This document shows positions 558 to 63,919 of a DNA stretch of 64,000 bases, piece after piece. The notes under the pieces were generated by a model, which was given only the letters and a program-made list of their open reading frames with translations, made no database searches and had not been told where the DNA came from. How positions within the stretch are numbered: the stretch's first letter is position 1; every line of letters starts with the position of its first letter. Both the position numbers and the translations under genes were made by a program. The stretch spans positions 62,001 through 126,000 of the forward strand of contig NZ_JASBRG010000005.1 of assembly GCF_029961145.1 (NCBI RefSeq), written 5' to 3'. Source of the DNA: Pinibacter soli. GTDB taxonomy: Bacteria; Bacteroidota; Bacteroidia; Chitinophagales; Chitinophagaceae.

Positions 558-566
558 ACTATGTTT

Positions 567-652
567 GATGTACGGTGTTCGAAGTACGAAAGTCATTGGG
601 ATGTAGCTCTCTAAAGAATTTCGTATACCGTACATCGTACTTCTTACGACTC
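567..652. repeat. Imperfect inverted repeat of GTAC-rich words
   Basis: The left arm (567-594) contains GATGTACGGT and GAAGTACGAA. The right arm (622-650) contains ACCGTACATC and GTACTTC. The arms can pair around a spacer of about 27 bases. The repeat lies directly after the protease stop codon. It is one of a series of word-built palindromes in this window. The rest of 558-775 shows nothing else I can name. Confidence 0.6.
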
Positions 653-775
653 CTCATCCTCTCTCCGTACACTTTTTGTTCGAAATCGAACACTTGATTC
701 AACTCCTCAAAACACAAAACCCTAGAAATCAAGCATCTACAGTTTGGCATTAGCTTGGCCTTCTGATAAGCACTT

Positions 776-1153
776 ATGCTTATCACTTACTTTAAAATAA
801 CACTGCAAAACTTATCGGGAAGTAAACTCATTTCGGGTATTGACCTTTTCGGCGTAGCCATTGCAACGGCCTGTTGCCTGATAATGTTGTTGTACATTTT
901 AACTGAGTTGTCTTTTGACAAACATCAAAGCAACACCAAGGACATTTATATTATTCGATCTGAAAATTATTGGAGGCTAAGCAGAAAAAAAAGCGTTGCT
1001 ATTGTGCGCCTTTCCACCTCCAGACTAAAGACGGACATACAAAATGCTACGTGGACGCTTAATATGAACGTTGCTAAAACGTCATTACAAATAAAGGAAG
1101 GAAAGGATTGTCAATACCAGAGTGCATGCATGAAGAGACTGAAAACAGAATGA
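776..1153 (+). pseudogene. Truncated MacB/FtsX-type ABC transporter permease
   Basis: The 125-residue frame begins MLITYFKITLQNL and continues with a hydrophobic segment (GIDLFGVAIATACCL) and ELSFDKHQ. This is the standard N-terminus of Bacteroidota MacB/FtsX-like permeases: a cytoplasmic lead-in, TM1 and the start of the periplasmic MacB-PCD domain. Intact family members are about 780-810 residues, so only the first tenth or so survives. After roughly residue 65 the sequence no longer resembles the family (RLSRKKSVAIVRLSTSR), and the frame then stops. I read it as a decayed fragment. A small functional protein cannot be excluded, but no partner ATPase is nearby. Confidence 0.7.
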
Positions 1154-1160
1154 TAAAAAA

Positions 1161-1226
1161 ATCAGAAATTAGGAACTGACCACAGAAGGCATCCCAATCC
1201 CTAATCCCTGATTTCTAATTCCTGGT
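1161..1226. repeat. Inverted repeat of AATTAGGAA-type words
   Basis: ATCAGAAATTAGGAACT (1161-1177) is matched by the reverse complement in CCTGATTTCTAATTCCT (1207-1223). The repeat lies between the permease remnant and the stop codon of the DUF6249 gene and could act as a bidirectional transcription end. Confidence 0.55.
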
Positions 1227-1594
1227 TATGCGGCATTTTTAATCTCACGTTGCTGATCCAATACTTCTTTCTTCTCTATTTTGTAAGAGTAGACAAGTCC
1301 GATACCGCCGCCTATAGCGATGAAAGCGAACCAGAGCGCAGGATTGTCAGTTTTTAAGATGTGTTGGGTTACGACGTAAGCGAGCGCCAATCCGATGCCG
1401 GAACCGATGAGCAACAGACCCCATTTCAGGCTGCGGTAAGGAGCAGGAATGTTGGCGAATTCTTTAGGGTTTATGCCTCTGTCAATCAAGGCCATGTTTT
1501 CTTTATTTACGAGGTAGCGCCATCCAAATATCATTGCAAAGCCGCTTACGAACGATATGATTAACCAGAGTATTGCTAATTGACCTGTTTCCAT
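1226..1594 (-). CDS. DUF6249-type small membrane protein
   Basis: This 122-residue protein has a predicted N-terminal membrane helix (about residues 5-26, LAILWLIISFVSGFAMIFGW). A short cytosolic stretch (VNKENMALIDRGINPKEF) follows, then two further hydrophobic segments near 55-75 and 87-107, and a charged tail. The pattern matches the DUF6249 family, which in Bacteroidota often lies next to an ECF sigma factor, as here. The two genes are divergent across 360 bases. The function is unknown. A role in membrane stress sensing tied to the sigma factor is inference from context only. Confidence 0.65.
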   Translation of the reverse strand: METGQLAILWLIISFVSGFAMIFGWRYLVNKENMALIDRGINPKEFANIPAPYRSLKWGLLLIGSGIGLALAYVVTQHILKTDNPALWFAFIAIGGGIGLVYSYKIEKKEVLDQQREIKNAA

Positions 1595-1742
1595 TTTAAA
1601 GGTTTTAATGAATTTATAATTAGTTTTTTATGAGTTTCTTTCTTGTCAGACTAACCTTTTGTTTCTGAGGTTACATCTTTCAGGATTTTTTTTCAACCGG
1701 TTTCAAAGTATCAGACTATGGGTGAGGGGAAAAGGTTACAAC

Positions 1743-1911
1743 AATTAGGAACTAAGAATTAGGAATTAGGAATTTAGGGTGCTGCAGTATCAGGCGTATC
1801 CGGCCTTGTCTTTATTATAGCAAGGAATTTGCATCCAATTTTAATGCAACACAGAAAGAATTCTTAATTCTTAATTCCTAATTCTTAATTATTAATTATT
1901 AATTATTAATT
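1743..1911. repeat. Long inverted repeat of TTAATTC/GAATTAGG words
   Basis: The left arm (1743-1777) is a run of AATTAGGAA and AAGAATTAGG words. The right arm (1858-1911) is a run of TTCTTAATT, TTAATTCC and ATTAATT words. About 80 bases lie between them. The repeat fills most of the 360-base gap (1595-1954) between the DUF6249 gene and the sigma factor gene. I see no clear -7 element for the sigma factor in the remainder. Confidence 0.65.
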
Positions 1912-1954
1912 GTCCCTGTAACCTCAACCCTTCCAAAGTCGTCAAACAATACCA

Positions 1955-2536
1955 ATGACAACACAACCTTCAGACAATGATCTAATTGCACAGGTGCTTC
2001 GGGGCAATCAACAGGTGTTTGCGGAGTTGGTGAAACGATACCAGAATTTCGTTTTTACCATTACGCAGCGATATGTTGACAGCCGCGAAGATGCGGAAGA
2101 AATTTCGCAGGATGTTTTCGTTAAAGCTTATCGTAGCCTGCGAGATTTTCGCGGCGATAGTAAGTTCAGCACATGGCTTTATACAATTACTTCTACTACT
2201 TGCATTACTCATTTAAGACGTAAAAAACAGGATGTGTTTTCTCTTGACCAGGAAAACGTATTTGCAAGAGCTGAGAATTTAAATTCCGGTTTTAATGCAA
2301 ATGAAGTGGAACAAAAATCTAAAATCAATATGGTGAACAGTGCCATTGCGCTCCTTTCGCCGGATGATGCGCAGGTGATCACGTTGTTTTACAAAGCAGA
2401 GCAGAGCCTGGATGAAATAGCTAATATTATGGGACTGGAAACAAACACTGTGAAAGTGCGCTTACACAGGGCAAGGCAACGACTGAAAGAAAAAATGGAA
2501 AAACATTTCGTGGCTGAACTAAACGATCTGAGGTAA
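1955..2536 (+). CDS. RNA polymerase sigma-70 factor, ECF subfamily
   Basis: This is a 193-residue alternative sigma factor with the two-domain ECF layout. Sigma region 2 (about residues 22-95) contains the DAEEISQDVFVKAY core-binding motif and STWLYTI. Region 4 (about 130-185) has LSPDDAQVITLFY followed by a helix-turn-helix (LDEIANIMGLETNTVKVRLHRARQRL). ATG 1955 gives the normal family N-terminus. The next gene, 59 bases downstream on the same strand, looks like its membrane-bound anti-sigma partner. The regulon cannot be read from the sequence. Confidence 0.93.
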   Translation: MTTQPSDNDLIAQVLRGNQQVFAELVKRYQNFVFTITQRYVDSREDAEEISQDVFVKAYRSLRDFRGDSKFSTWLYTITSTTCITHLRRKKQDVFSLDQENVFARAENLNSGFNANEVEQKSKINMVNSAIALLSPDDAQVITLFYKAEQSLDEIANIMGLETNTVKVRLHRARQRLKEKMEKHFVAELNDLR

Positions 2537-2595
2537 TTTTAAGAATCCCCTGATTACAACTCGGAATTTCGATCTTATACTTTATAAAACGCATT

Positions 2596-3132
2596 ATGAT
2601 GGACACAAATAGCAATATTGAAGAAAGATTATGGGACTACGTTGACGGTATTTCCAGTGCCCATGAAAAAAATGTGATTGAAAAATTACTGGAAACCAAC
2701 AGCGAATGGCGCCATAAATACAAAGAGATTTTGAAGGCCAGCATTCTTTTGCAGGAAAGCATTGAGATCGATGAGCCTTCTATGCGCTTTACGCAAAATG
2801 TAATGGAAGAAATAGCCAAATATAAAATCGCTCCGGCAGCTTCTACCTATATCAACAAGAAGATCATCTACAGCATTGCAGCTGTGTTTTTAACCATTAT
2901 TGTCGCCATGTTTGTGTATGTTTTTGCAAACGTTGATTGGGCCCCTGCAGGATCTGGCGGTGGTATACCATTTGATATTTCTAAAATTAACTACGGCAAA
3001 ATATTCAACAGCACATATGTAAACATATTCCTGATGTTGAACGTGATCATTGGCCTTGTATTTTTAGATAAGTATTTTTCAGTTAAGAAGAAGAAATTAC
3101 TGGAACGGGATTTAACAAATACATCCATTTAA
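2596..3132 (+). CDS. Probable anti-sigma factor (single-pass membrane protein)
   Basis: This 178-residue protein follows the ECF sigma gene. The N-terminal part (about residues 1-85) is charged and helical (ERLWDYVDGISSAHEKNVIEKLL), with the WDYVDG...E style seen in Bacteroidota anti-sigma-like proteins. A transmembrane helix follows (about 90-112), then a glycine-rich spacer, a second hydrophobic segment (about 140-160, VNIFLMLNVIIGLVFLD) and a basic tail. No HxxxCxxC zinc anti-sigma motif is present, so the role rests on gene order and topology. ATG 2596 and ATG 2599 are equally possible starts. Confidence 0.6.
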   Translation: MMDTNSNIEERLWDYVDGISSAHEKNVIEKLLETNSEWRHKYKEILKASILLQESIEIDEPSMRFTQNVMEEIAKYKIAPAASTYINKKIIYSIAAVFLTIIVAMFVYVFANVDWAPAGSGGGIPFDISKINYGKIFNSTYVNIFLMLNVIIGLVFLDKYFSVKKKKLLERDLTNTSI

Positions 3133-3241
3133 CCGTTTAATCAGTTAAACTTACATTATTTAATAAGGTCGAATCAGCTAATTTTGCTGTTTAGTTATAA
3201 ATCAGCACTGTTCAACATTTTGAACAAAGGATATAGACCTA

Positions 3242-4471
3242 TTGATACAGAATCTTTTAATAACACTCACATTTATAATTTGCGGAGTTTTCTCCGCAAA
3301 TGTTTTTGCACAGGATACATCCATCATAAGACAGTTTAAACGAACGACAGATACCAACCGGGAAGAAGTATCTGAAAAAGATCTGATCGACGTAATGCAT
3401 TCTTTGCAAAAAAATAAACCAGCAAAAGTCGCTGACACATCGATACAGCCACATAAGTTTCTTTACTCTGTTGTACCGGCCATTGGCTATACGCTTTCCA
3501 GTGGTTGGACGGCTATTCTCAGCGCGAATGTTGCGACGTATTTAAGCGACCCCAAAACAACCAATATTTCCAGTCTTACGGTAAGCGCCAATTATACCCA
3601 ATACAACCAGTTAACGCTTCCTGTTTTTTTAACGGTCTGGACAAAAGACAATAAATGGAACATTTCGGCTGACTGGCGATTTTACAAATACCCGCAAGAC
3701 ACATACGGGCTAGGTGGGCACAGCCAAATTGAAAATGCAGATAACATAGATTACTATCACTTGCGACTGCATCAATCCGTTCAAAAGAGAGTAACAAATT
3801 CACTATACCTGGGGTTAGGATATTTTCTGGACTACCATTGGGATATAGATGAAAAAGGATACAACAAGGATGTTGCAGAATATGGCCTGCCGACAAAAAC
3901 ACTTGCCTCCGGCCCGGTTGCAACCGTACTGTTTGACAGCCGAAAAAATTCGATCAATCCTTCACAGGGCTTTTTTGCAAATGTTGTTTACAGACCCAAC
4001 CTCACTATTTTTGGAAGTGACAACAACTGGCAGTCGTTAACAATTGACGTTAGAAAATACATCAACTTCCCAAAAGGCAGCAAGAACGTTTTGGCGTTCT
4101 GGAACCTTGACTGGCTTACGCCTTCTGGTAAACCACCTTATCTCGATCTGCCAAGTACGGGCTGGGATGCGTTTAACAACACCGGCCGTGGATATATACA
4201 AGGACGCTACAGAAGCTATAACATGCTGTATCTCGAAAGCGAATACCGCTTTCAGATCTCGCGTAACGGACTTTTCGGCGGCGTGGTATTTGCCAATGCG
4301 CAAAGCTTTTCCAACGGCCCTGGTCTTCACTTCGACAATGCTGCTCCCGCCGCAGGACTTGGCCTCCGCATTAAAGTGAACAAAATCTCCAAAGCAAATA
4401 TTGCTATCGACTACGGCTTCGGACTAAATGGATCGAGAGGTCTGTTCGTGAATTTGGGAGAAATCTTCTAG
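3242..4471 (+). CDS. BamA/TamA-like outer membrane beta-barrel protein (surface antigen D15 family)
   Basis: The 409-residue protein has an N-terminal signal peptide (LITLTFIICGVFSANVFAQ). After an unstructured stretch the rest is a beta-barrel: alternating strands, SGPVATVLFDSRKNSINPSQGFFANVVYRP typical of the Omp85 C-terminal barrel, and a barrel-closing end in aromatic residues (NLGEIF). There are no POTRA domains, so it is a short barrel-only member, common in Bacteroidota and of unknown cargo. The start is TTG at 3242. The only in-frame stop upstream is TGA at 3221, no ATG lies between, and AAAGG sits about 12 bases before the TTG. Confidence 0.8.
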   Translation: MIQNLLITLTFIICGVFSANVFAQDTSIIRQFKRTTDTNREEVSEKDLIDVMHSLQKNKPAKVADTSIQPHKFLYSVVPAIGYTLSSGWTAILSANVATYLSDPKTTNISSLTVSANYTQYNQLTLPVFLTVWTKDNKWNISADWRFYKYPQDTYGLGGHSQIENADNIDYYHLRLHQSVQKRVTNSLYLGLGYFLDYHWDIDEKGYNKDVAEYGLPTKTLASGPVATVLFDSRKNSINPSQGFFANVVYRPNLTIFGSDNNWQSLTIDVRKYINFPKGSKNVLAFWNLDWLTPSGKPPYLDLPSTGWDAFNNTGRGYIQGRYRSYNMLYLESEYRFQISRNGLFGGVVFANAQSFSNGPGLHFDNAAPAAGLGLRIKVNKISKANIAIDYGFGLNGSRGLFVNLGEIF

Positions 4472-4518
4472 AAATGTACGAAGTACGAAGTACACAATTG
4501 AAGCTTCGTGAAATTAAA

Positions 4519-4541
4519 AAGACGCGGCAATGCCGCGTCTC
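4519..4541. terminator. GC-rich palindrome between convergent genes (REP-like hairpin)
   Basis: AGACGCGGC (4520-4528) and GCCGCGTCT (4532-4540) form a perfect 9-bp stem with loop AAT. An A-run precedes it and CTCTAC runs through its right end. On the minus strand a T-run follows, so it can terminate tex transcription and may also block read-through from the barrel gene. The CTCTAC tail is shared with the hairpin at 62070-62092. Confidence 0.6.
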
Positions 4542-4562
4542 TACAGGATTACCCTGATTTTA

Positions 4563-6839
4563 TTAATCATTGAACTTTTTCTTCAGATCCATCAGTTTCG
4601 CCTGGAACGGATTCAATGGCTGTGGCTTGCCGCCGCCCTGTTGTGGCTTTTTGATGTTTTGATTACCGCCACTTCTTTGGCCCTGCTCTTTGTTATCTCT
4701 TGCAGGTTTGCTGCCATCCTTCATGCTAAGGCCAATACGCTTTCTTGCTACATCTACTTCGGTTACCGTTACCATTACTTTTTGCTGCAATTTCACCGCT
4801 TCATTTGGATCGCTGATGTAAGAATTGCTAAGTTGAGAAATGTGTACCAAACCATCTTGTTTTACGCCTATGTCAACAAAAGCACCGAAGTTCGTAATGT
4901 TTGTAACTATACCAGGCACAGTCATTCCAACTTTCACATCTTCGATCGCTTTGATGGTTTCATCAAAGCGGAACTCTTCGATCTGTGCACGTGGGTCACG
5001 GCCTGGCTTTTCAAGCTCTTTCAAAATATCGTCAATGGTGAACTCACCTACTTTTTCAGATACATATTGCTTGCGGTTGATCTGTTTGCGCAAGTCATTT
5101 TGTTTGATCAGATCTTCTACGGAACAATTAAGATCTTTGGCCATTGCTTGTACCACTGAATAACTTTCAGGGTGCACGGCACTGTTGTCAAGCGGATTTT
5201 CAGCATTGCGAATGCGAAGGAAGCCCGCGCATTGTTCGAATGTTTTTGGCCCCATCAAACTCACTTTCTTCAGCTCGTCACGAGTTTTGAAAGCACCATT
5301 TTTTGCCCTGTATTCAACAATATTTTTTGCCAGTGTTGCACTCAAGCCAGAAACATAGTTCAGCAAATGTTTACTTGCAGTATTCAAATCAACACCTACG
5401 TGGTTCACCGCACTTTCAACTACTTTGTCAAGACTTTCTTTCAAACGCGTTTGGTTTACATCGTGCTGGTACTGACCAACGCCTATTGACTTAGGATCGA
5501 TTTTTACCAACTCACTCAGCGGATCAAGCAAACGACGACCAATGCTGATGGAACCACGAACGGTTACGTCCTGATCAGGAAATTCTTCACGTGCCACTTC
5601 TGATGCAGAGTAAATAGACGCACCACTTTCATTTACCATGAAAATGCTCACGTGTTTGCCAAAGTCAATGTTTCGGACAAGTTGCTCCGTTTCACGACCC
5701 GCGGTACCATTACCAACACCAATTGCTTCAATATCGTATTTGTTTACCAGATATTTCAATTCATGAATCGCTTCATCAGTTTGATGTTGCGATAGCGTGA
5801 AGATGGTTGAATAGTGCTGAAAATTACCTTGCTCATCCAGGCAAACCACTTTACAACCTGTACGGTAGCCCGGATCTATTGCCATTACACGTTTTGAGCC
5901 CAGCGGAGATGCCAGCAACAACTGACGAAGATTTTCTGCGAATACTTTTATAGCTTCTTCATCCGCGTCTGTTTTACTAAGCAGGCGGTATTCATTTTCG
6001 ATCGATGGTTTCAGCAAACGATCGAATGAATCATCAATTGCTTTCTTCACTTCGCCCGCAGCAGGGTTGCTTGCTTTTACAAATATTCTTTCAAGATCTT
6101 CTACACCGGTTGTTTTGTCGATGTTCAGATCCATGATCAGGAAGCCTTCTTTTTCACCGCGACGAATCGCCAGAATCCTGTGTGAAGGACTTTGTGAAAG
6201 CGGTTCATTGAATTCAAAATAATCGCGGTACTTCTGTGCTTCAGGATCCTCTTTTTTGCTCGACAAAACTTTTGCCTGCAATACAGATGTTTCTTTAAAT
6301 ATCTGGCGCACTTTGTTTCTCGCCTGCTCATTTTCACTCACCCACTCTGCAATGATATCTCTTGCACCTTGTAGTGCCTCTTTATTGTCTTTTACAAGAT
6401 CGTTCAGGTATTTTGCCGCTTCTTCATCAGGAATTTCATTGCCTTGTTCGAAAAGTAATTTTGCCAAAGGCTCCAAACCTTTTTCAATGGCTTGCGTAGC
6501 TCTTGTTTTACGTTTTGGTTTGTAAGGCAGATAAATATCTTCCAGTTCAGTTGCGTCATAGCAATCGTCAATACGTTGTTTAAGCTCCGGTGTTAATTTA
6601 CCCAGACCCTCGATCGTTTTGATAACTGTTTCTTTACGTTTCTCAAGCTCGTTGAAATATTTAATTTCTTCCACCACGTTATTGATCATCACCTCGTCGA
6701 GGTTTCCGGTAGCTTCCTTTCTGTATCGCGCCATAAATGGAATGGTTGCCCCTTCTGCATTCATGTCGTGAATATTGGTGATCTGCTTGATTGATAAGCT
6801 TAGTTTTTCAGCAGCTTTTTGTACGTACTTCGGTTCCAT
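4563..6839 (-). CDS. tex: Tex family RNA-binding transcriptional accessory protein
   Basis: This is a 758-residue cytoplasmic RNA-binding protein of the Tex/YhgF family. Domains in order are the Tex N-terminal helical region (1 to about 190), a YqgF/RNase H-like domain (near 320-450, VMAIDPGYRTGCKV), helix-hairpin-helix repeats (near 490-560, VGVDLNTASKHLL, GLSATLAKNIVEY) and a C-terminal S1 domain (near 645-715, GIVTNITNFGAFVDIGVKQDG). A basic Gly/Gln-rich tail follows. The ATG at 6839 was chosen because it starts the conserved MEPKYVQKAAEKL. The frame is open further upstream only from a TTG. A TACATTTG promoter element lies 51 bases upstream. Confidence 0.93.
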   Translation of the reverse strand: MEPKYVQKAAEKLSLSIKQITNIHDMNAEGATIPFMARYRKEATGNLDEVMINNVVEEIKYFNELEKRKETVIKTIEGLGKLTPELKQRIDDCYDATELEDIYLPYKPKRKTRATQAIEKGLEPLAKLLFEQGNEIPDEEAAKYLNDLVKDNKEALQGARDIIAEWVSENEQARNKVRQIFKETSVLQAKVLSSKKEDPEAQKYRDYFEFNEPLSQSPSHRILAIRRGEKEGFLIMDLNIDKTTGVEDLERIFVKASNPAAGEVKKAIDDSFDRLLKPSIENEYRLLSKTDADEEAIKVFAENLRQLLLASPLGSKRVMAIDPGYRTGCKVVCLDEQGNFQHYSTIFTLSQHQTDEAIHELKYLVNKYDIEAIGVGNGTAGRETEQLVRNIDFGKHVSIFMVNESGASIYSASEVAREEFPDQDVTVRGSISIGRRLLDPLSELVKIDPKSIGVGQYQHDVNQTRLKESLDKVVESAVNHVGVDLNTASKHLLNYVSGLSATLAKNIVEYRAKNGAFKTRDELKKVSLMGPKTFEQCAGFLRIRNAENPLDNSAVHPESYSVVQAMAKDLNCSVEDLIKQNDLRKQINRKQYVSEKVGEFTIDDILKELEKPGRDPRAQIEEFRFDETIKAIEDVKVGMTVPGIVTNITNFGAFVDIGVKQDGLVHISQLSNSYISDPNEAVKLQQKVMVTVTEVDVARKRIGLSMKDGSKPARDNKEQGQRSGGNQNIKKPQQGGGKPQPLNPFQAKLMDLKKKFND

Positions 6840-6890
6840 GAGTAAATATTTTAAAAGAAACGATTTTCGCTTTTTTGGGAAAGCGGGGAG

Positions 6891-6898
6891 CAAATGTA
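6891..6898 (-). promoter_or_regulatory. -7 promoter element for tex
   Basis: The minus strand reads TACATTTG, a full match to the Bacteroidota -7 consensus TAnnTTTG, 51 bases before the tex ATG. No convincing -33 element is visible. Confidence 0.5.
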
Positions 6899-6953
6899 AG
6901 GTATGAATTGAAAGAAAAAACTTTGATTTTTAATCCGGAAAGACGTATAAAAA

Positions 6954-7033
6954 AGAAGTGAAAAGTAAAAGTAAAAAGTAAAAAAGGGAGCCTAATTTTC
7001 GGGGTCCCTTTTTACTTTTTATTTTTTACTTTA
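6954..7033. repeat. Inverted repeat of AAAAGTA words with a terminator core
   Basis: The left arm (6954-6990) repeats AAAAGTA and ends AGGGAG. The right arm (7004-7033) begins TCCCT and repeats TTTTTACT. The GGGAG...TCCC core plus the T-run makes a plausible intrinsic terminator for the thioesterase gene on the minus strand. Confidence 0.6.
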
Positions 7034-7036
7034 TTT

Positions 7037-7552
7037 CTAGTCTTTAATAAACAATGCCTTCAGTTCTTTTGCATCGTCTGGCTTCATTTTACCTCCCAAA
7101 ATCAGGCGAAGCTGACGTCTGCGCAAAGCGCCTTCAAAAAGTAATTTTTCTTCGTCCGTTTCCGCCACAAAACCCGGGACAGTTGTAGGTTTATTGTTTT
7201 CATCAAGGGCTACAAACGTATAATATGCTTCGTTGCTTTTGTATTTTACCCTTTTCGCCAGATCCTCTCCCCAAATTCTTAAATGCACCTCCATAGAAGT
7301 GGTAAATGCACGACTCACCTTAGCTTCAATATGCACTACGTTGCCCAATTTAATAGGCGATTCAAAGGAAATATTGTCAACGGAGGCCGTTACAACAGGC
7401 ATATTGCAATGTTTTTGTGCAGCCAGTGCCGCTGCGATGTCCATCCAATACATTAAGCGACCTCCCATAAGGTTATTGAACAGGTTAGTATCATTGGGTA
7501 GCACCAACTCCGTCATTGTGATTGCGCTTTCTGCTGCTTTTTTTACGTCCAT
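7037..7552 (-). CDS. Acyl-CoA thioesterase, hotdog fold
   Basis: This 171-residue cytosolic enzyme hydrolyses acyl-CoA thioesters. The sequence has the YciA/BACH-type hotdog signature: ELVLPNDTNLFNNLMGGRLMYWMDIAAALAA, with the N...GG...D active-site region in the first 50 residues. A beta-strand part follows (VHIEAKVSRAFTTSMEVHLRIWGED), and KSNEAYYTFVALDE follows that. The length fits a single hotdog domain with a short C-terminal helix. A TAGTTTTG promoter element lies about 22 bases upstream, giving a short leader. The physiological substrate cannot be read from the sequence. Confidence 0.88.
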   Translation of the reverse strand: MDVKKAAESAITMTELVLPNDTNLFNNLMGGRLMYWMDIAAALAAQKHCNMPVVTASVDNISFESPIKLGNVVHIEAKVSRAFTTSMEVHLRIWGEDLAKRVKYKSNEAYYTFVALDENNKPTTVPGFVAETDEEKLLFEGALRRRQLRLILGGKMKPDDAKELKALFIKD

Positions 7553-7574
7553 ATTTAATTTTTATAATATGGCG

Positions 7575-7582
7575 CAAAACTA
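7575..7582 (-). promoter_or_regulatory. -7 promoter element for the thioesterase gene
   Basis: The minus strand reads TAGTTTTG, a match to TAnnTTTG, 22 bases before the start codon. Confidence 0.5.
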
Positions 7583-7589
7583 GGTGGAA

Positions 7590-7750
7590 TAATTTGAAAA
7601 TTTGAAAATATGCTAATTTGAAAATTCTTTTTGGGCAGCTTTCCTTTTTTTCATTTACTCCTCAAACATTTTAGAACCAGCAATAAATGGCGAAAGTAGC
7701 ACCTGAGGCATTTTCAAATTTTCAATCTTCAAATTTTCAAATTAATATGC
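7590..7750. repeat. Inverted repeat of TTTGAAAAT words
   Basis: The left arm (7590-7628) holds three AATTTGAAAAT words. The right arm (7710-7746) holds ATTTTCAAA words in reverse complement. About 80 bases lie between. The stop codon of the dipeptide epimerase (7737) is inside the right arm. Confidence 0.65.
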
Positions 7751-8840
7751 TCTCCAGGTTTTTTAAAAAATCAACGTCTACGTCAGCGCCAATCCCCGGT
7801 TCTTCTGGAACGGTAACAGAAAAATTGTTGAAGGAAAGGCCTCCTTTTACAGGGTCGAGTTTATGGCCGAGCATACAGGTGTCCATATCGTAAAAACGAA
7901 TATTGTCGGTCGCTTTGGCGAAATGAGCAAAGGCTGTAAGGGCAAGTCTGCTCTCCAGCATGCCGCCCATCATACAGGGGATGTTACCTTGTTTGCAGAC
8001 CTCACTTATTTTTATCGCTTCAAGAATGCCACCGCTTTTGGCAAATTTTATATTTACATAATCACAAGCCTTTGCAGCAATAAGGCGCTTGGCATCATGA
8101 TGATCAAACACGCTTTCATCCGCCATTATTTTTACCGGAGAATTTAAAACAAGTTCTGGTAAAACAGGATCATGATGTCTGCGCATCGGCTGTTCGCAAA
8201 ATTCAACGTCATAGCGACTGATCTCGTTCAACGCAAACTCAGCATCAGCGTAGCTCCAGCCCTGGTTCGCATCTACACGCAGCGTAATGAAAGGATGAAC
8301 AGCTTCCCTTATTTGTTTTACTCTTTCCACATCTTCAGCAGGATGTTTGCCCAACTTTATTTTAATGATCTGTACGCCACGCTCAATGAATTCTTTCGCT
8401 TTTGCGGCCATATTTTCCGGTGTGTCTATGCCGATTGTAAGATCGGTGATCATTTCTTTTTGCTTTGCATTTGGATTAAGAAATGAATACAACGGTTTGC
8501 CCACCTGCTTTGCAGCAATGTCGTACAGCACCATATCAAACGCACTTTTAATGGTTGCGTTATAAGCAGTAAATGCATGTAATTCACTCATCCTTGCGGC
8601 AATGTCCAGCGCATCTTTGTCCTTCCACAACTGCGCAAAATCTTTTGCCATTACAAAACAAGTCTCCTGTGTTTCACCAACGATCATTGGAAACGCAGAG
8701 CACTCCCCTACTCCAACAATGTTCTCGTTTGTGTAAGCCTTTATGAAAATGTTTTGTGCAAAATTCATTGTTCCCGTTGCGATCGTAAAAGGATGCATGG
8801 GAATGCTGTATTTGTATATTTCGAATGCTGTAAAAATCAA
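7737..8840 (-). CDS. Dipeptide epimerase, enolase superfamily
   Basis: This 367-residue cytosolic enzyme probably epimerises L-Ala-D/L-Glu or a related dipeptide, as in murein peptide recycling. Superfamily marks are visible: the capping domain with VGVGECSAFP (near 40-50), the catalytic pair KIKLG (near 160), the metal ligands in RVDANQGW, CEQP and ADES, the second catalytic lysine in KFAKSGG, and the C-terminal YDMDT motif of dipeptide epimerases. The start is uncertain. TTG 8840 restores the normal N-terminus (FTAFEIYKYSIPMHPF), whereas the first ATG is 14 codons in and would cut the first strand. The gene ends inside a repeat arm. Confidence 0.85.
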   Translation of the reverse strand: MIFTAFEIYKYSIPMHPFTIATGTMNFAQNIFIKAYTNENIVGVGECSAFPMIVGETQETCFVMAKDFAQLWKDKDALDIAARMSELHAFTAYNATIKSAFDMVLYDIAAKQVGKPLYSFLNPNAKQKEMITDLTIGIDTPENMAAKAKEFIERGVQIIKIKLGKHPAEDVERVKQIREAVHPFITLRVDANQGWSYADAEFALNEISRYDVEFCEQPMRRHHDPVLPELVLNSPVKIMADESVFDHHDAKRLIAAKACDYVNIKFAKSGGILEAIKISEVCKQGNIPCMMGGMLESRLALTAFAHFAKATDNIRFYDMDTCMLGHKLDPVKGGLSFNNFSVTVPEEPGIGADVDVDFLKNLESILI

Positions 8841-8923
8841 GATATGTGTTTTGAGTTTTAAGTTTGTGAGCGGTAATAACCGTTCGGTTTTGACTTTTGA
8901 TTTTTGACTTTTGGGCTTCCACC

Positions 8924-9688
8924 TTACTTCCCCATTGCCTTAAAAATCGCCAGTGTTTTCGCGCCCTCACGGAGTTGCAATTCATCTCCTACTATAAAAT
9001 AATTATTGGTAGATTGTATGTAGGCAAACAGTTTTGTTTCCACAGCATTAATTTCAGGAGCACACATTTTTTTGGTGCTTGCAAGGTGGTTCATTCTTAA
9101 CGAAGCAATGCCTGTTTTATAGTTACCTCGTATAAAATTACATCCTCCGTAACCGGTAAATTTTAAGCCCGTTGTATCAAATTGTATATAAGCACTGTCG
9201 CTGATTAATGTGCCATCCATTCTCGTAAGTTTCCATTTCGCATCAGTTAAGGCAACATTAGGCATGTTTTGCTTTCTGTAAATTGTCCGTACGCTGCGTT
9301 TTGGCATCGTCGTAGTGACAAGCGAATCGCTGCTTACATTCAACGCTATCATTGTATCACGCACCATTGTTGCAGGAGCGTTGCCCATATTGCTTTCAAT
9401 TACGAATACAAGTGTGTCGCCAGCGAGCCACCATTTTTTATAATCCAGCGTTGGTGTGTTAATGGATTCTGCAACGCTGTCTTCCTTTAATTTGAAACCT
9501 TCCACCTGCCCTACCTTGCCGGGCTTCTGACAAATCCATGCGCCAATAAATTTGCCCGCATCGGGATTTACCTTTTTCGCTTTCACCGCTGCAATAGTGT
9601 CTTTGCCTTCATTTTTCGATTGTGACGCATTGTTACATGCGCTCATGAATATCAAAGCAAGAAACAGTACTCCGATAATATTTTTCAT
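8924..9688 (-). CDS. Lipoprotein with lipocalin-like and META/HslJ domains
   Basis: The 254-residue protein starts with a lipoprotein signal (MKNIIGVLFLALIFMSAC, lipobox Cys18). The middle part (about 45-145) resembles a lipocalin-like beta domain (WWLAGDTLVFVIES). The C-terminal 100 residues are a META/HslJ domain: LTDAKWKLTRMDG, FDTTGLKFTGYGGCNFIRGNY and LASTKKMCAPEINAVETKLFAY, with the conserved GGCN and MACP-like Cys. META domains occur in envelope stress proteins. The exact role here is unknown. Confidence 0.8.
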   Translation of the reverse strand: MKNIIGVLFLALIFMSACNNASQSKNEGKDTIAAVKAKKVNPDAGKFIGAWICQKPGKVGQVEGFKLKEDSVAESINTPTLDYKKWWLAGDTLVFVIESNMGNAPATMVRDTMIALNVSSDSLVTTTMPKRSVRTIYRKQNMPNVALTDAKWKLTRMDGTLISDSAYIQFDTTGLKFTGYGGCNFIRGNYKTGIASLRMNHLASTKKMCAPEINAVETKLFAYIQSTNNYFIVGDELQLREGAKTLAIFKAMGK

Positions 9689-9990
9689 CTGTCAATTTTT
9701 TTATTGTTTTTAATGGTCAGAGCCCGCCCGAATTGTTCAGAATAATATCATGCCTTAACTGGAAAAGTTCATAGGGTAACCCGATCAGCAATTTATAAAA
9801 CTGTTTATATATTATTCTTAATAAAAAAAGAACTTATATATATTTTACAAGTCTCTTGCCAATTTGATGCATTTTAACAAATAACCCAATTTATTTAAAA
9901 ATAACTATTGCCCTTCTATTTTTCTACACTTCAGTTCACTAATCAATCGATTGTGTCATTTTTATTTAAAAAATACTTACCGGTAAAGGG
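9689..9990. other. Gene-free, A/T-rich stretch between divergent genes
   Basis: About 300 bases separate the lipoprotein gene (minus) and proline dehydrogenase (plus). The stretch is A/T-rich with no palindrome, repeat word or open frame that I can support. The only site I recognise is the -7 element at 9997-10004, just to its right. Confidence 0.5.
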
Positions 9991-9996
9991 TTTCCG

Positions 9997-10004
9997 TAAT
10001 TTTG
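9997..10004 (+). promoter_or_regulatory. -7 promoter element for proline dehydrogenase
   Basis: TAATTTTG matches TAnnTTTG, 26 bases before the ATG at 10031. No clear -33 TTG is seen at the usual distance. Confidence 0.5.
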
Positions 10005-10030
10005 CTCATTCATTTTTTTAAAATGTCACT

Positions 10031-11260
10031 ATGAATACACTCCCCAAAATTTCTTTTGACAATACGGCTAACGCATTTGAGTACAAGTCCGACAAACTCC
10101 TGAAGAAAGCTCGCTTCCTTTTCTCTTGCATGAAAAATAATTTTCTTGTAAAAGCAGGTATAGCCCTTACTCCATTGGCGATCAAATTAAGACTGCCAGT
10201 GAAGGGTCTGATCCGTAGTACTATTTTCCAGCAGTTTGTTGGTGGTGAAACACTCGAACAAACAAAATCTGTTGCGGAAACATTAGGCAAATATCATGTC
10301 CAGGTTATTCTCGACTATGGTGTGGAAGGCGGCGACGACGGCGAACACGGATTTGATCACGCGACAGAAGAATTTCTGCGCGTTATCAACTATGCCGCTA
10401 CGCAAAAAAATATTCCGTTCATGAGCATTAAAGTAACAGGTCTTGCAAGATTTGAGTTACTGGAAAATATCAATGCTTTAATGAACAAACAACGAGGTGA
10501 TCTGCTACAGTGCTATGAAAAAGCCCTCCTACAATTAAGCGCTGAAGAAAAGGCAGAATGGCAAAGAGTTGTGGAGCGTGTTCAAAAAATCAGCCAGGCA
10601 GGTTATGAAAAAAATGTCGGCGTTTTGGTAGATGCCGAGGACTCGTGGATACAAGAACCTGTAGATGCACTGACAACGAAAATGATGGAAAAATTCAATC
10701 ACAAGTCAGTTATTATCTACAATACACTGCAAATGTACAGGCATGATCGTTTGTCGTTCCTGGAAGAAGCATTGCAAATGGCCGTTGAAAGAAAATATGT
10801 TCTGGGTGCAAAAATTGTTCGTGGTGCTTATATGGAAAAAGAAAGAGACCGCGCCGAAGAAATGGGCTACCCTTCTCCTATACAACCCAATAAAGAAGCG
10901 ACGGACAGAGATTACAATGCAGCTGTGGATCTTTGCATCGACAATATCAACAATGTTGCTTTGATAGTTGCTTCGCACAATGAATACAGCAATCTGTTTG
11001 TTACCGAACAACTACTTTTAAAAGGCTTCGAATTGGATCATCCTCACGTGCACTTTTCACAATTGTACGGCATGAGCGATAACATCACTTTCAACCTTGC
11101 AAAAGCAGGCTGCAGCGTTAGTAAATATTTGCCTTTCGGCCCTATCAAAGATGTAGTGCCTTACCTGATGCGCCGTGCAGAGGAAAATAGCTCACTAAGC
11201 GGACAAACAGGAAGAGAGTTGAGTTTGATCGAGAAAGAAATAAAACGGAGAGCCAATTAA
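10031..11260 (+). CDS. Proline dehydrogenase (FAD-dependent)
   Basis: This 409-residue enzyme oxidises proline to pyrroline-5-carboxylate and passes electrons to the quinone pool. It is a monofunctional PRODH. Family marks are the TIM-barrel segments with ILDYGVEGGDDGEHGFD (near 95-110), VDAEDSWIQEPVD, YNTLQMYRHDRL, KIVRGAYMEKER (near 260) and the substrate-binding YLPFGPIKDVVPYLMRRAEENSS (near 375-395). Arg-Arg in the last motif binds the proline carboxylate. The partner P5C dehydrogenase is not in the window. ATG 10031 gives a normal family N-terminus. Confidence 0.93.
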   Translation: MNTLPKISFDNTANAFEYKSDKLLKKARFLFSCMKNNFLVKAGIALTPLAIKLRLPVKGLIRSTIFQQFVGGETLEQTKSVAETLGKYHVQVILDYGVEGGDDGEHGFDHATEEFLRVINYAATQKNIPFMSIKVTGLARFELLENINALMNKQRGDLLQCYEKALLQLSAEEKAEWQRVVERVQKISQAGYEKNVGVLVDAEDSWIQEPVDALTTKMMEKFNHKSVIIYNTLQMYRHDRLSFLEEALQMAVERKYVLGAKIVRGAYMEKERDRAEEMGYPSPIQPNKEATDRDYNAAVDLCIDNINNVALIVASHNEYSNLFVTEQLLLKGFELDHPHVHFSQLYGMSDNITFNLAKAGCSVSKYLPFGPIKDVVPYLMRRAEENSSLSGQTGRELSLIEKEIKRRAN

Positions 11261-11401
11261 TAATTAATAATTAATAATTGATAATTAATAAGGCCGCATT
11301 CAGTATTGAATGCGGCCTTTGTTTAGATACAACTATAGCTATGTTATTCTCGTATTCGATGCGACACCTATTAGTTCTTAATTATTAATTATTAATTTTC
11401 T
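11258..11401. repeat. Inverted repeat of TAATTAAT words around a terminator
   Basis: The left arm (11258-11291) is a run of TAATAATT words. The right arm (11376-11401) is a run of TTAATTATT words. The stop codons of both convergent neighbours touch or fall inside the arms. A separate perfect hairpin lies within (11290-11319). Confidence 0.6.
11290..11323. terminator. Intrinsic terminator between convergent genes
   Basis: AAGGCCGCATTC (11290-11301) pairs perfectly with GAATGCGGCCTT (11308-11319) around loop AGTATT, followed by TGTTT. It ends the proline dehydrogenase transcript. The core CGCATTC-N6-GAATGCG recurs in the hairpin at 16983-17016. Confidence 0.8.
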
Positions 11402-12605: not shown

Positions 12606-12625
12606 TACCTGGTCAATTTGTAAGA

Positions 12626-13294: not shown

Positions 13295-13465
13295 ATCATC
13301 AGATGTTTACAAAGCTAAAAGTTTGGCTTGTCAAATCATAATTACTTCGGCCTGTTTTGGGGGTAGTTTTCCACAAGCCTAAAATTACGCTGCTATTCAA
13401 GCAAAAGTGCCGATTAAAAGGCCCTATCCTGCGGCCAGTATTCAGCTGCTTTCAGCTCAATGCCT

Positions 13466-13473
13466 TAACTTTG
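13466..13473 (+). promoter_or_regulatory. -7 promoter element for the PLP enzyme gene
   Basis: TAACTTTG matches TAnnTTTG, 42 bases before ATG 13516. Confidence 0.5.
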
Positions 13474-13515
13474 CTCTTATTTTTTTTAAAAAACCCATAA
13501 TCCACATTTTTTAAT

Positions 13516-14772: not shown

Positions 14773-14797
14773 TCTTACTTTAATATAAATTTCAAAT

Positions 14798-54245: not shown

Positions 54246-54307
54246 CTGAATAACTGAATAGTTCTAGCGCAAGTTTATTCAATTATTCAGTTACTCAGTT
54301 ATTCAAT
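54240..54307. repeat. Inverted repeat of TAACTGAATAACTGA words
   Basis: The left arm (54240-54262) reads GAGTAACTGAATAACTGAAT. The right arm (54278-54307) is the reverse complement (ATTCAGTTACTCAGTTATTCAAT) around 15 bases. Both flanking stop codons fall in or at the edge of the arms (convergent genes). It could terminate transcription both ways, although neither arm has a T-run. Confidence 0.65.
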
Positions 54308-56331: not shown

Positions 56332-56335
56332 ATTA

Positions 56336-56499
56336 TAGCACGCAGATGACACTGATTGGACTGATTTACACTGTTTTTTTTTAATAACTGAATAACTGAA
56401 ACTTTAAGTTTAATAGAGGCCTTATCATTAATCCATAAGTTTAGTCAGTTAACGAAAAATCCGTGCGAATCAGTCCAATCAGTGTCATCTGTGTGCTAA
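56336..56499. mobile_element. Inverted-repeat (MITE-like) element, copy 2
   Basis: The left end (56336-56372) reads TAGCACGCAGATGAC... and contains ACTGATTGGACTGATTTACAC. The right end (56460-56499) contains AATCAGTCCAATCAGTG and ATCTGTGTGCTA, its reverse complement. The interior (about 85 bases) has no ORF but includes AATAACTGAATAACTGAAA, one of the intergenic words. It has the same ends as the element at 51888-52152. Confidence 0.65.
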
Positions 56500-56529
56500 A
56501 AGCTAGCTGTGTCACTAAATTTATTAATC

Positions 56530-57379: not shown

Positions 57380-58063
57380 CTGCAAGGCTTGTAGCCTTGC
57401 AGATTTATACTGTTGCCTTTGGCAACTTCAATGCAGCAAGTCCACTTCTATTAGCCCTCTTTTTCCTTCATAATTGGAGGCGCTACTATACAAATAATCC
57501 GATGGATTCTGCACAAGGGCTGCCCTCACCGGATTGTTATGAATGTAATCAAGCTTGGTCTTCATAAAATCGAAGCTATGTATTATTTCAGGATGATTGT
57601 TGCCTGACCATAACTTGTATTTATCATTCGCGTTGGTTCTTTTTCCAAAGAATTCAAACATATATAACAACCACTCACGCCTGCTTTCGACTTCTCCTTT
57701 ATCTGCAATCGATCTCAAAATTTCTTTGCTGGTGAATGTTTTGAAATCACGCATAACATCGCTGAGCGATTTTTCAGTAGCGGTCCAAATGACATGCACA
57801 TGATTTGACATAATCACGTAAGCATGTAGTCGCAGGCCTTTTTTGGCGATGCAAAATTTAAAGCTTTCCAGGATAATATCACGGTAGCGTTGTCGCGAAA
57901 AAATATCTATCCAACCTTCAACTGTAAATGTGAGAAAATGGGTTGCGAATTGATCGCGGATTCTAAATCCTTCTGTAAACATATTTTTCATAAGGTATAA
58001 GGTGTTAAAACATTTTGTCGCCAGAGGCGACAGTATAAGGCTGCAAGGCTGGAAGCCTTGCAG
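57380..58063. mobile_element. REP-RAYT unit: transposase gene flanked by mirrored REP pairs
   Basis: The RAYT gene (57428-57991) is enclosed by two two-hairpin blocks in inverted orientation. Left: CTGCAAGGCT-TGT-AGCCTTGCAG (57380-57402) then GTTGCC-TTT-GGCAAC (57412-57426). Right: GTCGCC-AGA-GGCGAC (58017-58031) then CTGCAAGGCT-GGA-AGCCTTGCAG (58041-58063). The long stems are identical. The short stems differ by compensating changes. The spacer ATTTATACT or AGTATAAG is also mirrored. Confidence 0.8.
57428..57991 (-). CDS. REP-associated tyrosine transposase (RAYT, Y1_Tnp family)
   Basis: This 187-residue single-strand DNA transposase is of HUH type. The histidine motif is MSNHVHVIW (near 61-69). 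The catalytic tyrosine is most likely in the KLDYIHNNPVRAAL block (near 146-159) or the nearby PSDYLYSSA. The N-terminus has HFLTFTVEGWIDIF. RAYTs move or maintain REP sequences in bacterial genomes. The protein is full length with no frame damage, so activity is possible. It stands between two genes unrelated to it. Confidence 0.88.
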   Translation of the reverse strand: MKNMFTEGFRIRDQFATHFLTFTVEGWIDIFSRQRYRDIILESFKFCIAKKGLRLHAYVIMSNHVHVIWTATEKSLSDVMRDFKTFTSKEILRSIADKGEVESRREWLLYMFEFFGKRTNANDKYKLWSGNNHPEIIHSFDFMKTKLDYIHNNPVRAALVQNPSDYLYSSASNYEGKRGLIEVDLLH

Positions 58064-62026: not shown

Positions 62027-62027
62027 T

Positions 62028-62121
62028 TGAAAATTGAAAGTCGAAAATTGAAAATGAATTTCTTTTATTAGAGGCGAATTCGATTCGCCTCTACCATTTT
62101 CAACTTTCAATTTTCAACTCC
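62028..62121. repeat. Inverted repeat of TTGAAAATTGAAAG words around a GC-rich palindrome
   Basis: The left arm (62028-62059) repeats TTGAAAATTGAAAG. The right arm (62095-62119) is CATTTTCAACTTTCAATTTTCAACTCC. A separate perfect hairpin lies inside at 62070-62092. Both convergent stop codons flank it (62026 and 62121). Confidence 0.65.
62070..62092. terminator. Palindrome between convergent genes (REP-like)
   Basis: AGAGGCGAAT (62070-62079) pairs perfectly with ATTCGCCTCT (62083-62092) around TCG. It carries the CTCTAC tail shared with the palindrome at 4519-4541. It may act as a bidirectional terminator or as a dispersed palindrome family. Confidence 0.6.
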
Positions 62122-63263
62122 TAAAGCACCCCTTTCGTGCTTGGCAAATAATTGCTTAGCGGATCCCGTTTAATGGCCATTTTTATTGCTTTTGCGAAGG
62201 CCTTAAAGATGGCTTCTATCTTATGATGCTCGTTGTATCCTTTACATTCGATATTCAGGTTACATTTAGCCGCATCGCTGAACGATTTAAAGAAATGAAA
62301 AAACATTTCAGTTGGCATCTCTCCTATTTTTTCTCTCTTGAATTCCGCATTCCAAACGAGCCAGTTTCTTCCGCCAAAATCAATCAGAACCTTGGCTTCA
62401 GCTTCATCCATTGGTAAAGCAAAACCATATCTTTCCATTCCGCGTTTGTCGGTAAGAGCTTGCGCAAATGCTTCTCCAAGTGCAATGCCGGTATCTTCTA
62501 TCGTGTGGTGTTCATCTATGTGCAGATCGCCTTTTGTTACAATGTTGAGATCCATTTTTCCATGTCTTGCGATTTGATCCAGCATGTGATCAAAAAAACC
62601 AAGGCCTGTAGCGATGTTTGCTTTGCCGCTTCCGTCAAGGTTTACTTCTACATGAATTTTTGTTTCGCTTGTGTTGCGGTCGTGTGTAACAACCCGCTGA
62701 CCAAGTTTTAAAAACTCATAGATCTTACTCCAGTCGGTTGATTCCAACGCAACCGTTGTTTTGCGAAGATCTTCCGCTTTATCATTTATTTCAGCTCCGC
62801 CCAAATTCGCATCTTCATTTAGCCAGATCGCTTTACAGCCAAGGTTTTTCGCCAGTTGTACATCTGTTATCCTATCACCTATTACAAATGAATTAGCAAT
62901 GTCGTAAGCAGGATTGTTCAAATACTCTGTCAGCATTCCTGTGCCTGGTTTGCGTGTTGGCGCATTGTCGGCAGGAAAAGTTTTGTCGATGTGCACTTTC
63001 GAGAAATGAATGCCTTCTCCTTCCAAGCTTTTCATCACAAAATTATGCAACGGCCAAAAAGTGTCTTCGGGAAAAACCGGCGTTCCCAAACCATCCTGGT
63101 TTGTTACCATCACCAGTTCATAATCCAGCTCACGGGCAATGCGTCCCATAAATTCAAACATCTTCGGATAAAAAGTCAGTTTGTCAAACGAATCAAGCTG
63201 ATAAGTAGGCGGCGCCTCGTTTATAAGCGTTCCATCACGATCTATAAAGAGAATAGGCTTCAT
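62121..63263 (-). CDS. hisB: Bifunctional histidinol-phosphatase/imidazoleglycerol-phosphate dehydratase
   Basis: This 380-residue enzyme fuses two histidine-pathway activities. The N-terminal HAD phosphatase (about 1-160) has [13 protein letters not shown] (nucleophile Asp9), [13 protein letters not shown] and [17 protein letters not shown]. The C-terminal dehydratase (about 190-380) has [32 protein letters not shown] and [17 protein letters not shown], the metal-binding His-rich motifs. No other his genes flank it, so it is detached from any histidine operon in this window. Confidence 0.94.
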
Positions 63264-63320
63264 GGAGAGAAACTAAAAAGTTAAAAATAAAAAGTAAAAA
63301 TAGGTTTGCGATAATGCTTG

Positions 63321-63414
63321 GTGACTGAATAACTGAATAATTGAATAACTGAAGTTTATACTCGATTAGTCACGTAGACCTTTAGCACTCAGTTATTCAA
63401 TCATTCAGTTATTT
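63321..63414. repeat. Inverted repeat of TAACTGAATAACTGA words
   Basis: The left arm (63321-63354) repeats TGACTGAATAACTGAATAA. The right arm (63387-63414) is ACTCAGTTATTCAATCATTCAGTT. About 33 bases lie between. The stop codon of the cytochrome c gene (63409) is inside the right arm. The same word family builds the repeat at 54240-54307. Confidence 0.65.
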
Positions 63415-63816
63415 CTTCGGTCTTGCGGCTTTAACCTCTGCCACTGTTACCGCAGAAGCCTTGTTGCCAAAGCTGTTTCGTACATAGGTAAGGACATCTG
63501 CGATTTGCTGATCGGTTAAAAAATTGTGTGGCGCCATTACGTTGCTGTAATCTTCGCCTTCCACTTCCACGCCAGAAAGACCATTCATTACAATGCCAAT
63601 AAGTTTTTTCTTGTCGCCCAATACAAATTTCGTTTTGATCAAAGGCGGGTTCATGCGTGGCGCACCGCCGCCATCCTGCATGTGGCAGGCAAGGCAGTAT
63701 GTGTCGTACACAATTTTACCGCGATCTTTTGATGCCTTTAAGCCAGACTGCTGGGGTAGGGTGAATGCGCACAGTGAAAGAGCCAGTAAGCAAAAAATTC
63801 CTACAATAAGTTTCAT
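63409..63816 (-). CDS. Periplasmic c-type cytochrome
   Basis: This 135-residue protein has a signal peptide (MKLIVGIFCLLALSLCAFT). It has one haem-binding motif CLACH (near 41-45), with the axial methionine probably in SNVMAPHNF (near 95). LTDQQIADVLTYVRNSFG near the end is the standard C-terminal helix of class I cytochromes c. The partial gene upstream on the same strand looks like a PQQ-type sugar dehydrogenase, so the cytochrome is its likely electron acceptor. The stop codon is inside a repeat arm. Confidence 0.88.
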   Translation of the reverse strand: MKLIVGIFCLLALSLCAFTLPQQSGLKASKDRGKIVYDTYCLACHMQDGGGAPRMNPPLIKTKFVLGDKKKLIGIVMNGLSGVEVEGEDYSNVMAPHNFLTDQQIADVLTYVRNSFGNKASAVTVAEVKAARPKK

Positions 63817-63827
63817 TACGATTCAAT

Positions 63828-63919
63828 TAAAAATTCAAAAGTCAAAAGTCAAAAAAGTAGCAGCGTGCTAAAATCAGGAGCAACCCTTTTGACTTTTGAA
63901 TTTTTGAATTTTGACTTTA
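63828..63919. repeat. Inverted repeat of TTCAAAAGTCAAAAG words
   Basis: The left arm (63828-63861) repeats AATTCAAAAGTCAAAAG. The right arm (63885-63919) carries CTTTTGACTTTTGAATT. About 23 bases lie between. It separates the cytochrome c gene from the partial dehydrogenase. Confidence 0.65.

Follow-up and report, generated by a model that had tools for sequence, protein, structure and literature searches.

The stretch considered here, a 64,000-nucleotide window of Pinibacter soli DNA, forms part of contig 9 (C9, 567 kb) of a 5.9-Mb genome (G000). Between its genes lies a class of palindromes in which a tandem run of a short word is followed, across a spacer, by the same words in reverse complement. 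These elements lie mostly beside stop codons, draw their words from a lexicon shared between loci, change the words of both arms jointly between related genomes and sometimes differ from their orthologs by an inverted spacer; the two arms probably evolve in concert at the DNA level. Two genomes of the same genus, G001 (G1) and G002 (G2), were used for comparison. The HisB-like protein of the window has 98% identity in both, and its best named matches include Flavihumibacter, Segetibacter and records labelled Chitinophagaceae. Genes were called as the longest open reading frames of at least 90 aa; distances to start codons are therefore rough and small genes are missed. The original prediction had placed palindromes at fifteen junctions of the window, each of which was rescored at its original coordinates against 200 dinucleotide shuffles of that junction. 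The inverted-arm score lay above all shuffles at 14 of the 15, leaving 1161-1226 at chance level, while the tandem score did so at 11 and failed at 567, 1161, 7590 and 62028.

None of the palindromes is assigned to a strand. That at 567-652, built from GTACGAA/TACGATG words, starts 9 nt after the stop at 557 and is weak when taken alone, with an inverted score of 12.0 against a shuffled maximum of 10.0; its orthologs lend it support. The listed junction at 1161-1226 is indistinguishable from chance (inverted score 8.0 against a shuffled maximum of 8.5, RNA fold z of -0.44, tandem score also failing), and its orthologous gap could not be aligned. At 1740-1911 the words are AATTAGG/AATTAAG (7 nt), with arms at 1740-1777 and 1863-1900 and a right array that reaches 1911; the G1 ortholog consists mainly of AATTAAT words. 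The word AAAAGTA (7 nt) makes up the arms 6962-6984 and 7009-7032 of the element at 6962-7032, the orthologs of which carry AAAAGTC-type words. At 7591-7743 the arms (7591-7625, 7710-7743) are built from TTTGAAAA (8 nt), and in the G2 ortholog both arms consist of TTGAAAA plus TTGAGAG words. It can be observed that these composite arms in G002, at the place corresponding to 7590-7750, are ordered A B spacer A' B', that is, not in mirror order. The element at 11255-11397 (AATTAAT, 7 nt) lies between convergent stops, its spacer holding a terminator-like hairpin at 11290-11319, and that at 16936-17071 (AATTAGA/AATTAGG, 7 nt) lies between convergent genes, with an inner GC hairpin visible in the sequence. 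A divergent gap contains the TTTTGAGT-type palindrome at 17937-18040 (arms 17937-17969 and 18008-18040).

Two further elements with the 8-nt word TTTGAAAA are located in one ribosomal-protein operon. The element at 29851-29959, in the S5-L15 gap, is kept in G001 and has decayed below detection in G002, and that at 31155-31258, in the L6-L18 gap, is present in all three genomes, G1 and G2 having the same word as the window. Immediately after the stop at 48450, perfect 35-nt arms of TTGAAAA (7 nt) occupy 48452-48546, with an RNA fold of -47.2 kcal/mol (z -11.9) and a G1 ortholog of TTGAGAA-type words. The palindrome of ACTGAATA (8 nt) at 54234-54302 fills a convergent gap and overlaps a stop codon; its G1 ortholog uses GC-richer GCGTTGAGC-type words. 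TTGAAAA (7 nt) returns at 62027-62117, in an element that takes up the convergent gap adjoining hisB on its 3' side, and ACTGAATA (8 nt) returns at 63328-63413, overlapping the stop at 63409, where G2 has a short AGACAAGGCA hairpin. The last element, at 63825-63910, is built from AAAAGTC (7 nt), and both G1 and G2 carry a GTAGGGGCGAATCGC palindrome instead. An additional palindrome, absent from the original list, spans 56333-56501 with 47-nt arms of GCAGATGACACTGATT type and AATAACTG words inside at 56383-56400; the detector described below did not pick it up.

The detector required a tandem array at a lag of 6-10 and an inverted partner no more than 170 nt away and was supplied with no coordinates, its thresholds having been fixed only after the window had been inspected. 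It returned 12 inverted elements in the window against 1 counterpart in direct orientation. Across contig 9, contig 4 of G001 and a joined 640-kb stretch of G002 (hereafter the first three sequences), 76, 85 and 124 inverted elements were found, and a further 82 and 118 were found in 600 kb of contig 11 of G000 and 589 kb of contig 16 of G001, giving 485 elements in 2.76 Mb; the corresponding direct-orientation counts were 7, 13, 16, 9 and 16. Three shuffles of the intergenic DNA of contig 9 gave 1, 1 and 0 inverted elements against the 76 real ones, so that the shuffled-genome control holds almost no such structures. The density in G000, 135 per Mb (158 in 1.17 Mb), extrapolates to approximately 800 elements genome-wide. 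The period is 7 in 318 of the 485 elements, 8 in 126, 9 in 37 and 10 in 4; arms have a median length of 27 nt and spacers one of 67 nt in the first three sequences. No clear shared spacer motif was found, the top 8-mers of 285 spacers being mostly word fragments, and the window gave 0 matches to Rfam families at the gathering score.

Position and polarity are both strongly ordered. Co-directional gaps hold 323 of the 485 elements, convergent gaps 92 and divergent gaps 70. Among the co-directional elements, 258/323 lie closer to the stop codon before them than to the start codon that follows, and 233/323 start within 10 nt of that stop or overlap it; in 63/92 of the convergent ones, no more than 15 nt separates either edge from the stop on its side. 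In 432 elements the arm richer in purines is the 5' one and in 44 the 3' one, with a tie in 9. Furthermore, the polarity of frequent words in the first three sequences is absolute (37:0, 32:0, 28:0, 23:0, 21:0, 17:0, 15:0, 13:0 and 13:0), with one other frequent word reversed (0:8 plus one tie). Read inward, 570 arms contain stop codons in 2.34 frames on average, compared with 1.80 in shuffles and 1.23 when read outward, and the orientation kept by a word family is the stop-richer one in 22 families, the poorer in 5 and equal in 24. Stop-codon supply as the general cause of polarity is ruled out by AAAAGTC, which has stops only outward and shows the same polarity (13:0).

The orthologous gaps were examined in a one-way test of 319 elements, from which 74 were left out (72 with an unmapped flanking gene and 2 with a gap out of range). 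An element was present in the relative's gap in 214 of the 245 testable cases and absent in 31; orthologous junctions of close relatives thus keep inverted arms. For the first data set the count of filled orthologous gaps was 145 of 166, compared with 0.05 expected from shuffled gaps. Among gaps measuring 80 nt or more, elements occupy 81/299, 103/228 and 138/342. Where one genome has an empty gap, its counterpart contains an element in 55 of 311 cases, as counted in three of the four comparisons. Of 770 pairwise site comparisons, in which a single locus may count several times, 548 had both flanks mapped in range, comprising 502 filled, 23 shortened and 23 empty-like sites, several of the last retaining one arm or another palindrome. 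Two clean gains were read by eye. At G2:308549, in the joined stretch of G002 (G002:C1), the element is flanked by a 7-nt GACACTA duplication and is absent in both relatives, contig 9 having a single GACACTA copy; at C16:420310 a clean insertion lies at the stop codon with no evident duplication.

It had been proposed that the architecture stays constant while the word changes, and the pairs of orthologs bear this out. Both arms have diverged in 72 of the 214 pairs, with a complementarity of 0.805 within a genome and 0.362 across genomes, and in all 72 the within-genome value exceeds the cross-genome one. Where one arm remained similar (n = 34), 28 pairs favour the within-genome and 6 the cross-genome pairing; where both remained similar (n = 108), the numbers are 60 and 34. 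In 32 of 72 swaps the two words belong to the same similarity class, where 9.2 were expected and 17 was the maximum in 2000 reshuffles, the similarity classes having been defined after the swaps had been seen. Among 1,927 base pairs traced in the similar-arm pairs, 15 changed from one Watson-Crick pair to another by a double change, compared with 0.8 expected if the two sides were independent. A single G-U step does not explain 8 of these 15, because they are transversions. Moreover, G-U and A-C mismatches are equally frequent in convergent (39:39) and divergent (41:41) gaps, which fits, as expected, a process at the level of DNA.

Changes to the spacers were analyzed in 196 pairs, 18 of the 214 being left out with spacers shorter than 18 nt. 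The spacers were homologous in direct orientation in 76 pairs, inverted in 11 and without detectable homology in 109 (78, 11 and 107 when repeated with another seed). In the control, the middle 67 nt of 281 element-free gaps, 224 were direct, 2 inverted and 55 undetectable. The inverted share of homologous spacers is therefore 11/87 (95% confidence interval 6-21%) compared with 2/226 (Fisher p = 2e-5), and random locus pairs (n = 600) gave 2 inverted and 3 direct matches. The count is pairwise, G1/G2 211618 being the same locus as C9/G1 68962, so that it represents about 10 loci. The element at 567-652, which was not part of the detector set, is counted separately; the two relatives agree with each other there, and against both of them its spacer is inverted, with scores of 21.0 and 18.5 where shuffles reach at most 8.5 and 8.0. 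The spacer of 6962-7032 (listed from 6954) is inverted in G001, its match to G002 merely equalling the shuffled maximum. Homology is also lost more often in elements than in control gaps (p = 6e-16), the short spacers having less power than the 67-nt controls. Spacer homology survives in a few of the arm-swapped pairs, for example in direct orientation at G1/G2 78259 and inverted at 202594, and arms can therefore change in place. Both the spacer inversions and the matched double changes lend support to the earlier suggestion that words are copied across to the other arm.

The words had been described as specific to each locus, a description that the lexicon contradicts. About a dozen words make up most elements of the first three sequences, which contain 55 word types in total, and within the window TTTGAAAA recurs at 7590, 29840 and 31154, TTGAAAA at 48452 and 62028, ACTGAATA at 54240 and 63321, and AATTAGG-type words at 1743 and 16934. 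An exact 24-mer is common with another locus of the same sequence in 35/76, 47/85 and 81/124 elements, and the shared 24-mers include mixed-word orders. In a neighbour test of 25 of the 26 listed seven-letter words (AAAAATT left out), 24 lay within one letter of another, compared with a mean of 12.4 and a maximum of 20 in 200 letter-shuffled runs. GC-rich words such as CCGGCTA are also found in the relatives, and the median spacer length differs by word class (28, 41, 47, 50, 82 and 86). Genome-specific homogenisation appears weak, since exact 20-mers are shared between non-orthologous loci at 2.5% across species and 3.2% within (75/293 for detected orthologs). The stock of words appears stable, with a fluid allocation of words to individual sites.

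These observations are probably best accounted for by gene-end hairpin elements whose two arms are homogenised at the DNA level by repeated template switching or arm recombination, which would also flip spacers. Words would arise and expand within one arm by mutation and replication slippage in steps of 7-8 nt. A polymerase switching template between the arms, or recombination of the arms as inverted repeats, would then copy a new word across, occasionally flipping or remaking the spacer. Elements would last where they do little harm, beside stop codons; a modest use as an RNA hairpin, for 3' end protection or as a soft terminator, may help retention, and word arrays would also move between loci by some further route. 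In the parts of the two papers that treat the subject, Abraham and Hazkani-Covo (2021, PMC8604942) ascribe homogenised arms, inverted spacers and changes of several bases to template switching, and Monttinen and Loytynoja (2022, PMC8794818) make the same case for how RNA hairpins originate and are maintained. The likeness to the inverted repeats described there lies in homogenised arms, an inverted spacer and several bases changed at once; the difference is that arms are short and few bases change there, whereas tandem-word arms of approximately 27 nt change here. Both signs are present in our data, namely arm likeness (72/72, partly conditional on detection, and 15 versus 0.8) and spacer inversion (11/87). 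At G000:C9:162025-162142, the right arm holds about 10 TTTTTAC copies, fewer in G001, with the left arm unmatched, a case of one-sided slippage.

Several results weigh against homogenisation of the arms. The 72/72 result is partly built in, a palindrome being required in both genomes, and it reflects joint change rather than its rate. Correction is not immediate, since one-sided changes outnumber matched ones in similar-arm pairs (106 to 15) and the surplus right-arm copies at C9:162025 persist without a matching left arm. The small excess of G-U over A-C in co-directional gaps (208:155, p = 0.006) may point to selection on the RNA or to mutation with a strand bias. Inversion by itself fits template switching and arm recombination alike, 20-mer sharing is nearly equal across and within genomes, and spacer homology was undetectable in 55 of the 65 swapped pairs that could be tested, so that replacement of the whole element is possible there.

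Chance in A/T-rich intergenic DNA can be set aside almost entirely as an origin; 1161-1226 fits it, but the shuffled contigs (0-1 elements against 76) and shuffled orthologous gaps (0.05 against 145 in 166) have already refuted it for the palindrome class. Recombinase-driven invertible switches (invertons), which are reportedly studied in gut bacteria (PMC11892184), would explain inverted repeats with spacers inverted between relatives. They are nevertheless a very improbable account: a fast switch would leave half of the homologous spacers inverted rather than 11/87 (6-21%), the differing arm words offer no common site, and the elements lie mostly after stops. Greater weight, as a real rival though still an unlikely one, is given to mobile cassettes resembling miniature inverted-repeat transposable elements (MITE) or repetitive extragenic palindromes (REP), by which palindromes of different words would repeatedly insert at the same permissive gene ends while old ones were deleted, mimicking swaps. 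The dispersed word families of fixed polarity, the spacer lengths specific to word class, the duplication-flanked gain at G2:308549, a nested element at C9:49109, one-arm remnants and the 55/65 swapped pairs lacking spacer homology all suit such insertions. However, spacers aligned over at least 30 nt are common to different loci in only 1, 6 and 0 pairs among 125, 168 and 105 spacers, a test whose coverage of the three genomes was roughly a fifth, a seventh and a tenth, respectively; the shared interior of a MITE is therefore not seen and dispersal of whole elements together with their spacers is rejected. Empty-like sites are few (23/548), several still keeping one arm. Among the 103 sites with no likeness by common descent (the 72 swapped ones plus 31 without an element, the 34 one-arm-similar pairs being set aside), 72 moreover hold an element, compared with 55/311 gaps empty in a relative. 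Element density also shows no evident link to the copy number of Y1 transposases, the genomes rich in elements having 3, 6 and 3 matches and the 36 others searched 0-9; a transposase as driver appears unlikely, PF01797 copies not tracking density. In the window, an IS200-like Y1 transposase domain (PF01797, 29.4 bits, cut-off 23) lies at 57428-57991 on the minus strand, with matches at the corresponding places in G001 and G002; this protein could be a domesticated REP-associated tyrosine transposase (RAYT).

Selection on RNA structure, in which the hairpin ends or protects transcripts and the arm changes are ordinary compensatory mutations, appears about as unlikely as mobile cassettes or marginally more so. 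It is favoured by the 233/323 co-directional elements at the upstream stop and the 63/92 convergent ones near both stops, by the purine-richer arm being 5' in 432 cases and 3' in 44, and by the small co-directional G-U excess. Yet stepwise compensation does not predict changes of whole words or spacer inversions, polarity is unexplained by stop-codon content (AAAAGTC runs the wrong way, 13 to 0), and the nearest named relatives are almost without elements. Most spacers lack a GC stem plus T-run: a hairpin with a perfect 7-bp stem and a T-run occurs in at most 8% of any word class, although single elements (11255-11397) do hold one. As a candidate, a common terminator role was likewise rejected, window positions 1-20000 containing 22 terminator-like sites against 20.4 in shuffles and few spacers holding one. 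A dedicated terminator role is doubtful, because two elements lie inside a ribosomal-protein operon (L6-L18 in three genomes, S5-L15 decayed in G002) and density is high only in some lineages. The earlier proposal of a class of transcript ends is not supported, in view of the same operon and of the 323/485 elements between co-directional genes. A further reading, which retains arm copying and which we regard as possible but tentative, is that the 7-9-nt lexicon constitutes an inherited pool, from which arrays would move from one gene end to another, unrelated one with no transposase involved, through template switching between arrays in compatible register, before being copied into the opposite arm. 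Sites would keep the hairpin while words were reassigned, and the heritable unit would be the stop-codon fold together with the pool.

The distribution across lineages does not match the phylum-wide extent once suggested. In a survey of 80 named hisB loci (1.51 Mb), the 26 grouped as nearest (458 kb) contained 2 elements and the 54 others (1,055 kb) 23, compared with 0 and 1 in one whole-locus shuffle each; the words around hisB differ between lineages. Within the genus, the three genomes contain 256, 508 and 591 copies of the pattern formed by three AATTRRD units and a final AATT, overlapping matches included, compared with 106, 181 and 64 for the backward-read control. The pattern is present in only 45 of 147 genomes of the family and 54 of 296 of the phylum, mostly at low counts, with exceptions of 85 and 44 in two family members. 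An element follows hisB within about 60 nt in 6 of the 80 loci (L124, L135, L140, L144, L146 and L161), which represent several genera with differing words; the window likewise has its palindrome of 62027-62117 at the 3' end of hisB.

Heptanucleotide repeats in the P6b stem of the Nostoc tRNA-Leu(UAA) intron were reportedly described by Costa et al. in 2002. The single parts of the present phenomenon, heptamer tandem repeats, paired heptamers, gene-end palindromes and template switching, are known already; an account of the combined word palindromes was not found among the best-ranked matches in one open-access literature collection. In the sections of PMC3488679 that concern it, degenerate 7-nt repeats pair into the hairpin of the Nostoc P6b stem with a copy number that varies by genotype, and the repeats are assigned to a named class of repeat motif. 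Paired 7-nt repeats are thus common to both systems, but there they occupy one intron position and here hundreds of gene-end sites, and the shared lexicon, word swaps and spacer inversions belong, as far as that source extends, to the elements here. MacGregor (2015, PMC4679880), in the relevant passages, reports TAACTGA repeats that are patchy over Bacteroidetes, Cyanobacteria and Beggiatoaceae, direct with one indirect case, in the main genome usually located shortly before start codons, with some sets between stop codons in Microcystis; long simple sequence repeats (LSSR) are attributed there to Mrazek 2007. Intergenic 7-nt tandem words, TAACTGA included, occur in both studies, whereas the elements here are paired into palindromes at stop codons. 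As in short tandemly repeated repetitive sequences (STRR) and LSSR, the units are intergenic, tandem and mostly 7 nt long (period 7 in 318/485).

With approximately 800 elements at comparable sites, the genome offers hundreds of natural replicates of inverted-repeat evolution, making copying versus selection of paired arms directly testable in bacteria. Covariation in such hairpins alone does not prove an RNA function, and the question is raised of why gene ends become colonised. REP/RAYT elements, as described in the portion of PMC3733652 consulted, are small dispersed intergenic palindromes near gene ends that are able to supply stop codons; the elements here differ from that description in their variable arms, unshared spacers and apparent lack of a link to RAYT dosage. 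A conserved REP stem tagged with GTAG or CGTC was not seen by eye in the 15 listed junctions of the window. In the relatives, other short palindromes (GTAGGGGCGAATCGC, TGTCATCCCGACGAAGGAGGGATCT) replace some of the word palindromes, and positions 4518-4542 of the window contain a short GAGACGCGGCATTGCCGCGTCTC-type hairpin that is REP-like and distinct in kind.

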